A DNA stretch of 22,601 nucleotides from a virus, in the IMG/VR virus record IMGVR_UViG_3300038701_001969, positions 1 to 22,601 of that record. One strand, written 5' to 3'. A program made the position numbers and the translations under genes. The notes below the pieces were generated by a model that had not been told where the DNA came from, searched no databases, and saw nothing but the letters and a program-made list of their open reading frames with translations. Below are positions 18,196-21,019 of this stretch, one piece after another. The first letter of the stretch is position 1. Each line of letters starts with the position of its first letter.

Positions 18196-19292
18196 TGCCT
18201 GCAAAGCCACTGTCACAAGAGCAGGCGGCAAACGCCGTTGCGCTGGTCGAGGACTGTCTAAAAGAGGGCTTTGCTCCACCTTCGACGCCCCGCGCCGGCA
18301 TGGCCGCGATGACAGAGGCGGGAAGGCGCTTTCAAGAGCAGACCGGGCTGACACCGAAAGCCTTCGCCACCCGAATTTCCACCGCGCGCGACCGCTACGG
18401 CATAGAGCCCGACTGGTCACTCTGGCGGGCGCCGCAATATCAGCAGGTCAAAGGCACCAAGCGTAGCCCGAATGCCCGCGCGCCGATCCCCGAAAGCGTC
18501 CAAGAGCGCGAAGGCGAGCCGATCCGGGTGCTGGTTATTGGCGACACGCATGACGACCCTCGCCACCCGGATAAGTCGCGCTTCGAAGCGTTCGGACGGA
18601 TGGCCGCAGAGCGCAAGGTTGATCGCGTCGTGCAGATCGGGGATTTCGGCACCTGGGACAGCGTAAGCCGCCACGAAGACCGCAGCACAATCGCGGGCCG
18701 GGCGCTGCCGTCATTCGAGGACGATATGGCGTCATGCCGCATGGCCCTGATGGCGTTTCAGCGCGGCATGGGCGACTTCCGCTGCCCGCTGCACATCCCG
18801 CTGGGCAACCACGAAGACCGCGTTCGCGTGTATGAAAATCTGCACCCGGTCATGGAGGGCGGCATGTATCGCCGCCTGCTGGAAATGTTCGCGCAATATC
18901 GCTGGGAAACCCGACGCTTTGGCGAGTTCCTGTTCATTGACGGCGTGGGCTTCTGTCATGTGCCGCTGAACATCATGGGCAAGCCCTACGGCGGCAAGAA
19001 CCCTGAGAACCAGATCGGCAACGATGCGACGTTCTCGCTAGTCTACGGCCACACTCACAAGAAGGTGGTCAAGTCCGTTCCCAAGATCGGCCCAACCAAT
19101 CAGATCAAGGTGGTCAATGTCGGCTGCGGCCTGCCGTTCGGCCACGTCGAGGATTACGCGAAGCTGTCGACGACGGGCTGGGACTATGGCGTGATGGAAA
19201 TCGCCATCCAAGGCGGTCAAATCATTTCCGAGAAATGGTTCGACATGCTGGAGGTTCTGGACCGCTACGGCGAGCAGCAATGTGCCGCCTGA
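18195..19292 (+). CDS. Metallophosphoesterase with N-terminal helical (HTH-like) domain
   Basis: A 365-residue calcineurin-like phosphoesterase. All metal motifs are present: GDTHDD (G116-D121), GDFGTWDS (G149 on), GNHED (G204-D208), H255, and GHTH (G285-H288), which would bind two metal ions. Residues 1-75 are helical, LSQEQAANAVALVEDCLKEG and QTGLTPKAFATRISTARDRY, and resemble a helix-turn-helix-like domain seen in phage versions. The ATG overlaps the spanin stop (TAATG). Substrate is unknown; a nucleic-acid or nucleotide phosphodiester is possible. Its place at the end of the late operon is that of a moron or accessory gene. Confidence 0.88.
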   Translation: MPAKPLSQEQAANAVALVEDCLKEGFAPPSTPRAGMAAMTEAGRRFQEQTGLTPKAFATRISTARDRYGIEPDWSLWRAPQYQQVKGTKRSPNARAPIPESVQEREGEPIRVLVIGDTHDDPRHPDKSRFEAFGRMAAERKVDRVVQIGDFGTWDSVSRHEDRSTIAGRALPSFEDDMASCRMALMAFQRGMGDFRCPLHIPLGNHEDRVRVYENLHPVMEGGMYRRLLEMFAQYRWETRRFGEFLFIDGVGFCHVPLNIMGKPYGGKNPENQIGNDATFSLVYGHTHKKVVKSVPKIGPTNQIKVVNVGCGLPFGHVEDYAKLSTTGWDYGVMEIAIQGGQIISEKWFDMLEVLDRYGEQQCAA

Positions 19293-19340: not shown

Positions 19341-19401
19341 TGGCCGGTTAGCCCCGTCATGGTGCCATATGAGACACCAATGGCCGGTTATTTGGCCGGT
19401 T
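19341..19401 (+). repeat. Three direct copies of TGGCCGGTT upstream of att core
   Basis: Exact 9-mers at 19341-19349, 19381-19389 and 19393-19401. The last two are only three bases apart. A small dyad TGGTG...CACCA spans 19360-19380 between the first and second. GGCCGGTT occurs elsewhere by chance in GC-rich genes, but a cluster of three in 61 non-coding bases is not expected. They may be binding sites for excisionase or integrase. Confidence 0.5.
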
Positions 19402-19529
19402 GTGCCAGCGGGACGCAATCCCCGATCTCTCGGCTCAAAGCCTCTACCCTTTCGGGTGTGTGGGGTAGCTGTTCCCACCTCTGACAACACCCAATGGCTA
19501 CCAGAGCCATTCGAGCGCATCAAGAAAAT

Positions 19530-19549
19530 TGTGGGTGATTTTGTGGGGA
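19530..19549 (+). repeat. 20-bp direct repeat, left copy (candidate integrase arm site)
   Basis: TGTGGGTGATTTTGTGGGGA is exactly repeated at 19796-19815. Each copy itself holds two TGTGGG motifs 12 bases apart. The two copies bracket the att core, 127 bases to the left and 69 to the right. A further TGTGGGG lies at 19459. Confidence 0.65.
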
Positions 19550-19644
19550 CTTTCTGCGGTGTTCCGCGAACGTTCCGCCCCAAACTGCCCTTTTCGGCCG
19601 ATACGCATTGCCTGCTATATCAGGCGTCCAGCCCTGTCTGGTAA

Positions 19645-19656
19645 GGGCAATTGCCC
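19645..19656. repeat. 12-bp perfect palindrome GGGCAATTGCCC
   Basis: The palindrome lies 20 bases left of the tRNA-derived att core in non-coding DNA. It could be a dimeric protein site in the integration complex; this is inference from location. Confidence 0.45.
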
Positions 19657-19676
19657 GGTTTCCTCCCCCGCGCCGC

Positions 19677-19726
19677 CTAGATTGTGGATCTAGAGGTCTC
19701 CCGTTCAATCCGGGAAGGCGGTACCA
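19677..19726 (+). other. attP: Attachment site core: 3' part of a tRNA-His(GUG) gene
   Basis: This is the tRNA from the anticodon stem to CCA: stem CTAGA (19677-19681), loop TTGTGGA with anticodon GTG, stem TCTAG, five-base variable loop AGGTC, T-arm TCCCG-TTCAATC-CGGGA (19699-19715), acceptor strand AGGCGGT (19716-19722), discriminator A and CCA. T72 and A73 fit alphaproteobacterial tRNA-His, which lacks G-1. The sequence before 19677 does not form a D-arm, so it is a fragment, as carried by phages that integrate into tRNA genes and restore the 3' end. The dyad CTAGAT-TGTGG-ATCTAG (19677-19693) would be the pair of core integrase sites with crossover in the anticodon loop. The integrase gene ends 17 bases away. 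Confidence 0.85.
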
Positions 19727-19742
19727 TTTTTCCCCTTTATAA

Positions 19743-20852
19743 TCAGTCTTTTCCGGGTTCGCCATTGCCCCCGGCTTCCGCGCCTTCGCCCTCGCTGTGG
19801 GTGATTTTGTGGGGAGTTGCTGCAGCCGCCATTGCTTCCAGCGCGTCGGTTACGGCCCGCTCTTCCGGGTGAGCATAGCGCCCGGTCATGGCAATCTGGC
19901 TGTGTCCAAGCAAGTGCTGTGCGGCCCGCAGATCGCCGGTTGCGCGCACAAAGGCGGTGGCCGCATGGTGGCGCCAGTCATGGACCGCGCGCGCGTTGGT
20001 GATGCCAGCCCGGGTATAAGCCCGCTTCATGGCCGTTTGGAATGTGGCCGGCGGTATCGCCACCAATCCCCCCTCCCGATTTTCCCGAAACCATACCGTG
20101 TCGAGCCCGGCCGCTTTGGCCTGCTTGGCGCGCTCTGCCATCATTTGCCGGTCGCTCTCGATCAGCCGGATGACATGATCGCCGCCGTCCTTGCGGTCGC
20201 GAAGCCAGATCCGCCCGGATTCCGCGTTGAAGGCTGACAGCGGGAACCAGGCTTCGGACATGCGCGCGCCGTATCGGGCGAAGAATGCCAGGATCAGACG
20301 GTGGTGGTCGAGGAGCTGCGCGACCACGGCGGCTTGCTCGTCTGGCGTGAACTCGCGCACCCGGTTCTTGCGCTCTTTCAGCCTGACCGATCGCCAGTCT
20401 ATTTCCTGCACCAGAGCGCCGCGGACCCGCCGCGCGTATCCGTGGACGGGCCGCATCACGTCGATGATTTCGCGGTTGATGGTGGCGTTTGTCGGCGGGC
20501 GCTTATTGTGGGTCTGTTCGGCCCGACGCGCGGCGATGGCTGCGGCAATGTCCGCGGTGGACAGGTCGGCCATGTCTTTGGAGAAGTCGAGAACCCGCCG
20601 GCAGACGCGAAGCTGAAACGCAATTGTGCGCCAGCTTTTCAGGTGCCGGGCGTGATCGGTGAACCAAGCGGTCGCGGCGTCGTCTATGGTAATCCGTGTC
20701 TGAGTGCTTGTTCCCAGACGGGCAGCTCGCCGGGCTTCACGCTCGATGTCTTCCGCCTCACGCTTCGACGTGCAGCCGGTCGATTCACGATGTCTGATGC
20801 CTTGGTGCCAGAACTCGTACCAGTAGATCCGACCTCGCTTGTAGACCCCCAC
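19743..20852 (-). CDS. int: Tyrosine site-specific integrase
   Basis: A 369-residue phage integrase that catalyses attP x attB recombination. The N-terminus (MGVYKRGRIYWYEFWHQGIR, then STGCTSKREAE) is the small arm-binding domain; a SAM-like core-binding domain follows at about 55-150; the catalytic domain at about 165-345 has R197 (GARMSE), probable K221, H291-x2-R294 (HDWRHH), H317 (LGHSQIAMTGRY) and nucleophile Y326. The arm domain begins at residue 1, so the start at 20852 is well supported although it lies 169 bases inside the excisionase ORF. The C-terminal tail contains a copy of the 20-bp repeat. It adjoins the tRNA-His-derived att site. Confidence 0.93.
   Translation of the reverse strand: MGVYKRGRIYWYEFWHQGIRHRESTGCTSKREAEDIEREARRAARLGTSTQTRITIDDAATAWFTDHARHLKSWRTIAFQLRVCRRVLDFSKDMADLSTADIAAAIAARRAEQTHNKRPPTNATINREIIDVMRPVHGYARRVRGALVQEIDWRSVRLKERKNRVREFTPDEQAAVVAQLLDHHRLILAFFARYGARMSEAWFPLSAFNAESGRIWLRDRKDGGDHVIRLIESDRQMMAERAKQAKAAGLDTVWFRENREGGLVAIPPATFQTAMKRAYTRAGITNARAVHDWRHHAATAFVRATGDLRAAQHLLGHSQIAMTGRYAHPEERAVTDALEAMAAAATPHKITHSEGEGAEAGGNGEPGKD
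19796..19815 (+). repeat. 20-bp direct repeat, right copy (inside integrase 3' end)
   Basis: Exact copy of 19530-19549. It lies in the last codons of the integrase gene, where the opposite strand encodes TPHKITHS. The left copy is not in an equivalent reading frame, so the repeat is conserved as DNA and not as protein. Confidence 0.65.
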
Positions 20853-21019
20853 TGTTTGCGCCCCTGCTCAAATTCAGCCACATCGCGCGGGTCATAGCGG
20901 ATGGACCGCCGACCGAGAACGATCCGGGGCAGCTCACCACTGGCGCTTATCCCGCGCAAGGTCTTTCGATCCACCCGCAGGCGTTCGCAGACCTCTTCGA
21001 TGGTGAGTAGGGCTTGCAT
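20684..21019 (-). CDS. Excisionase-like DNA-binding protein (MerR/AlpA-type HTH)
   Basis: A 111-residue protein. Residues 4-53, LLTIEEVCERLRVDRKTLRG followed by PRIVLGRRSIRYDPRDVAEF, form the winged helix-turn-helix of the excisionase/AlpA (HTH_17) type that directs integrase towards excision or regulates it. The tail from about residue 56 is Ser/Thr/Gly-rich, then basic (RPAARRSVRRKTSSVKPGE), and is encoded in DNA that also encodes the integrase N-terminus in another frame (169-base overlap). Its ATG overlaps the upstream stop (ATGA). Excisionase is the likely role given adjacency to int; a transcription regulator is the alternative. Confidence 0.78.
   Translation of the reverse strand: MQALLTIEEVCERLRVDRKTLRGISASGELPRIVLGRRSIRYDPRDVAEFEQGRKQWGSTSEVGSTGTSSGTKASDIVNRPAARRSVRRKTSSVKPGELPVWEQALRHGLP

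Follow-up and report, generated by a model that had tools for sequence, protein, structure and literature searches.

The stretch of viral DNA analysed here (the window, an IMG/VR virus record that is linear and 22,601 bases long) contains a 50-base copy of the 3′ part of a tRNA-His gene, which is very probably the attachment core (attP) of a temperate tailed phage that recombines with the tRNA-His 3′ part of a Maricaulis-like host, with crossover in the anticodon loop. Carrying a copy of part of a host tRNA gene is the usual means by which phages insert into such a gene without breaking it. Direct reading of the bases revealed that 19677–19726 opens with the anticodon stem of a tRNA-His(GTG) gene and follows that gene base for base until its CCA end. 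This agrees with an earlier note made from the sequence, which had described a clean fragment with anticodon GTG and an att core derived from tRNA-His with T72 and A73. The anticodon stem-loop, the T arm and the 3′ acceptor strand are present, and the 5′ part of the tRNA is absent:

19677–19681, plus strand: 5′ strand of the anticodon stem-loop, CTAGA
19682–19688, plus strand: anticodon loop, TTGTGGA, with the anticodon GTG at 19684–19686
19689–19693, plus strand: 3′ strand of the anticodon stem, TCTAG
19694–19698, plus strand: variable region of the core
19699–19715, plus strand: T arm, TCCCG-TTCAATC-CGGGA
19716–19722, plus strand: 3′ acceptor strand, AGGCGGT, with T at position 72
19723, plus strand: discriminator base A73
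19724–19726, plus strand: CCA

ARAGORN recognised no complete tRNA in the 22,601 nt of the window, which indicates that 19677–19726 is a fragment. The core agrees with a genuine tRNA-His at 50 of 50 bases, against 26 of 50 at the next-best place in the window and 25–27 in 20 shuffles, so that a chance origin is excluded; the same score, which cannot be exceeded, also excludes a better match to a different tRNA, the outcome that the earlier note had set against its own reading. Identity to the Maricaulis tRNA-His spans 56 bases, beginning at 19677 and extending six bases beyond the CCA to 19732, with no identical base leftward of 19677 in either of two exactly matching genomes (G001, a Maricaulis sp. 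MAG, and G068, of the same family). Identity through the tRNA 3′ end, a left limit at the anticodon stem-loop and an adjacent tyrosine integrase gene, the features expected of a tRNA-targeting attP, are thus found together.

Genes encoding the portal, major head, tape-measure and tail-fibre proteins and the endolysin are arranged from left to right in the window (phrog search). The metallophosphoesterase gene ends at 19292 and is followed by a non-coding stretch with the core and then by integrase and excisionase-like genes on the minus strand. The following features make up the attachment region and its neighbourhood:

19530–19823, no strand assigned: putative complete attP with the core between two arm sites, conserved also in two further viral contigs
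19531–19547, plus strand: P-side repeat GTGGGTGATTTTGTGGG, putative integrase arm-type site, within a 28-nt repeat at 19530–19557
19677–19693, plus strand: anticodon stem-loop dyad with a 7-base loop, CTAGA-TTGTGGA-TCTAG, putative crossover (overlap) region
19677–19726, plus strand: probable attP core, tRNA-His(GTG) 3′ part starting at the anticodon stem and including CCA; the bases up to 19732 are also identical to those of the Maricaulis gene
19743–20852, minus strand: tyrosine integrase of 369 aa from the predicted start (PF00589, E 5.8e-17; phrog_1, E 1.1e-33)
19797–19813, plus strand: P′-side copy of the repeat, putative arm-type site, within the integrase gene at its 3′ end
20684–21019, minus strand: excisionase-like HTH_17 protein of 111 aa (PF12728, E 3.6e-10; phrog_66, "excisionase and transcriptional regulator", E 1.6e-8)

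The integrase gene ends 16 bases from the core. Exactly two copies of the perfect 17-base repeat occur in the window (at 19531 and 19797), 266 bases apart and flanking the core, compared with 0.04 copies expected in shuffles at up to three mismatches; they probably represent arm-type integrase sites. The right-hand copy sits within the integrase coding region, and some C-terminal residues of the integrase are therefore partly dictated by the att site. Just past the left repeat, the segment 19549–19585 is nearly identical in viral contig L003 and contains two copies of the motif GTTCCGC, to which an excisionase or accessory factor may bind. Since the attP is unsplit and flanked by phage genes, the record most likely derives from virion or excised DNA.

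Related viral contigs share this organization. L003, part of a 36-kb contig, contains the core in closely similar surroundings with the repeat at the same 266-base spacing, and L004, from a 24-kb contig, contains the same core and right side together with the left repeat copy. An integrase 88% identical is encoded in these two contigs (L005/L006). In the phage collection, 13 of 50,697 records match the integrase, all below 60% identity (best 32%), and DNA similarity to the window comprises one short match in the phosphoesterase gene.

According to the mechanism proposed here, the tyrosine integrase would recombine the attP core with the identical 3′ part of the host tRNA-His gene. Crossover probably occurs in the anticodon loop, where the displaced tRNA copies left by other elements in genomes G031 and G074 become identical. 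After integration, the 5′ part of the host tRNA would be joined to the phage-borne 3′ part, so that the tRNA-His gene would stay whole, with the T arm, U72, A73, CCA and the greater part of the anticodon loop now of phage origin. The integrase gene would come to lie beside the tRNA, and the 3′ part displaced from the host gene would be found at the far end. ARAGORN identifies an intact tRNA-His in a computed junction between the 5′ part of the G068 tRNA and the phage core, but in neither the attP nor the other junction. We infer arm binding, the crossover point and integration by the window phage from these sequence arrangements.

Genome searches, conducted with one genome per species, identified a candidate target. 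Among 84,980 species genomes (genome_contigs), the exact 50-base core is present at one place, in NZ_JADFAJ010000006.1 of the Maricaulis sp. MAG, where ARAGORN reports a complete tRNA-His. Maricaulis is a marine alphaproteobacterium belonging to the order Maricaulales and the family Maricaulaceae. In a second collection, 74 of 137 Maricaulaceae genomes match the region (E ≤ 0.001), and in the same MAG and in G068 the match covers all 50 bases without a difference; 52 of 385 genomes of a class sample also match, exactly only in the MAG. Most Maricaulaceae genomes have one tRNA-His match each. A host tRNA-His identical over the 50 bases, for which the earlier note had suggested searching, thus exists, and its expectation that the core would predict the integration target and narrow the host is supported by exact matches confined to these two genomes among those searched.

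The predicted host, a Maricaulis-like alphaproteobacterium, holds as far as tested. Neither an integrated copy of the window phage nor one of a close relative was found in the 137 family genomes or in 398 genomes of the order. Integrase relatives in the family genomes are partial and distant (best E 7.9e-9 at 30% identity), and the best in the 398 genomes of the order is 47% identical, with adjacent tRNA-His or core at none of the eight best loci; a search of the 137 family genomes, run without a positive control, revealed no relative of the major head protein. The tRNA-His of G001 itself adjoins a displaced tRNA fragment, suggesting that its 3′ part may stem from an earlier element. Element sharing, rather than descent of the host, may lie behind the exact G001 match, and tRNA-His 3′ ends exchanged by such elements could partly account for the match to the core.

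The acceptor end of the core is informative about the clade. The earlier note had attributed T72/A73 without C73 to the alphaproteobacterial clade that lost G-1, and the tRNA genes and the available portions of two publications are in line with this. Those portions indicate that tRNA-His of Rhodobacteraceae, Rhizobiales, Caulobacterales and Hyphomonadaceae shares A73 and lacks a templated G-1 (PMC3937112), and that A73, U72 and the anticodon are identity elements for the HisRS of Caulobacter crescentus (PMC9976931). The core has A73 with U72 and no templated G-1:C73 pair, as in this G-1-less clade; the top acceptor pair is G1:U72, which is invisible from the 3′ part alone. G1:T72, A73 and an encoded CCA are present in all 84 distinct tRNA-His genes read, with a variable base at position -1, although this represents consistency rather than an independent census because the genes were retrieved by similarity to the core. 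These 84 genes (90 rows minus six duplicates) include 70 from the family and 14 from the class sample, the latter being 14 loci from a subset of the 52 matching genomes; the set excludes four of the 74 matching family genomes (G007, G024, G026 and G037) and a second G111 match on another contig.

Other explanations of the core were considered. It might not be an attP but a scar beside a chromosomal tRNA-His, either the end of a prophage or a join made in assembly, given that tRNA fragments often mark attL/attR ends and that the record is a linear fragment; this is highly improbable because phage genes lie on both sides (head, tail and lysis genes on the left, integrase and excisionase-like genes on the right), the 5′ tRNA part is missing, and the same arrangement occurs in two other viral contigs. 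We give equally little credence to the core functioning as a small RNA itself, in which CCGCCT, lying across the left edge of the core, would pair with AGGCGG to form an acceptor-like stem without a D arm. When the window and L003 sequences are folded computationally this pairing does appear, but the fold is not a cloverleaf and its z-scores are only -1.94 and -1.30, while 6-base strings capable of such pairing occupy 1.1% of window positions. ARAGORN in bacterial and mitochondrial modes called nothing in the attP, and Rfam, even with E relaxed to 1, gave no tRNA in this region, so this stand-alone tRNA-like RNA was set aside.

Less far-fetched, though still unlikely, is that the attP targets the tRNA-His of a host outside Maricaulaceae, in another member of the A73/U72 clade. 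Integrases tolerate mismatches away from the overlap, tRNA-His 3′ parts at 87–94% identity exist outside the family (the 14 class-sample loci), and the T-arm haplotype has a patchy distribution in close relatives, all of which would permit such a host; however, exact matches occur only in the Maricaulis MAG and G068, and in none of the 384 other class-sample genomes.

Other elements indicate that tRNA-His is used repeatedly for insertion in Maricaulaceae. In six of the 137 family genomes, a displaced second copy of the tRNA 3′ part lies downstream on the same strand, at a distance of 18 kb (G001), 52 kb (G031), 9 kb (G045), 2 kb (G073), 1.5 kb (G074) or 2.9 kb (G075). The 52-kb interval of G031 has an integrase gene directly after the tRNA (phrog_1, E 3.9e-15; PF00589 below cut-off) and further encodes a repressor, tail terminator, tape measure, tail fibre and endolysin, which together identify a prophage with the polarity predicted for the window phage. 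No phage integrase was recognised among the subset of ORFs examined in the intervals of the other five genomes. Prophages at this locus, which the earlier note had proposed to look for, were therefore found in part: other elements are present, one of them clearly a prophage, but not the window phage itself. In G001 (L054/L053, G001:C19, ~20–38 kb), translation reading suggests exopolysaccharide-type genes beside the tRNA at that end of the 18-kb stretch, which is perhaps an island without its integrase.

All HisRS identity elements reported from this clade (anticodon, U72 and A73) lie within the core, which means that the tRNA-His of a lysogen would be phage-encoded in its 3′ part. A tentative and rather doubtful extension is that the core acts as a mobile tRNA allele and locks host range, with repeated integration shuffling T-arm haplotypes between species. 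If so, the hybrid tRNA would be mischarged or dead in a C73 host, and T-arm haplotypes would move among species. In a tree built from the adjacent gene for an M48-like peptidase (named by translation reading and found at 44 of 46 loci), the T:A haplotype at 49:65 is scattered (five rows) and needs four changes, at least three of which are forced by well-supported branches; this patchiness is not significant, as 67 of 500 label shuffles were as low, and parallel mutation is also possible. The displaced fragments of G073 and G074 have T:A and their present tRNAs C:G, whereas in G001 the two share T:A and thus show no swap. Because the core contains the histidine identity bases of the clade, it could serve as a straightforward means of asking whether the hosts open to lysogeny are restricted by tRNA identity rules.

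A skipping-rope RNA adjoins the attP and is convergent with the metallophosphoesterase gene:

19399–19488, minus strand: skipping-rope RNA (RF02924; Rfam 40.6 bits, cut-off 36.7)

At nine of the 13 bacterial skipping-rope loci matched at E ≤ 0.001 (L062–L066, L131, L133, L134 and L136), a PBECR3-like (PF18812) RNase-like gene lies within the ~3 kb read, being Pfam-supported in eight and convergent in eight. Such a gene is absent from the ~3 kb read at L067, L068, L132 and L135 and from the window. The two may form an RNA–toxin pairing, judging from this gene neighbourhood; a literature search found no published work naming both.

Williams (2002) is reportedly the original study of attP sublocation in tRNA genes. 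Among the literature titles listed on Maricaulis prophages and integrases and on tRNA-His/Caulobacter attB, we found no published account of Maricaulaceae tRNA-His as an attachment target. The G031 prophage and the displaced fragments in the other five genomes share target gene and polarity with the window phage, although the G031 integrase is distant. The available parts of the Islander paper (PMC4383910) and of a review (PMC8371274) describe a class A, anticodon-centred crossover for tRNA-targeting integrases, and the window resembles these "A" sites in having a 3′ fragment starting from the anticodon stem, a dyad with a 7-base loop and an adjacent integrase gene. Occupied "A" sites, as described there, show a regenerated tRNA and a displaced fragment, which are seen here in other elements at tRNA-His; for the window phage, the regenerated tRNA is seen in a computed junction. 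Different from the catalogued sites are the specific tRNA-His of the G-1-less clade and an integrase distant from those of the phage collection. From fifty bases, this uncultured virus can thus be assigned a probable host family and a precise place of insertion; the type of system is a classical anticodon-centred tRNA attachment site, and what is new is the specific target, Maricaulaceae tRNA-His, and the host assignment.
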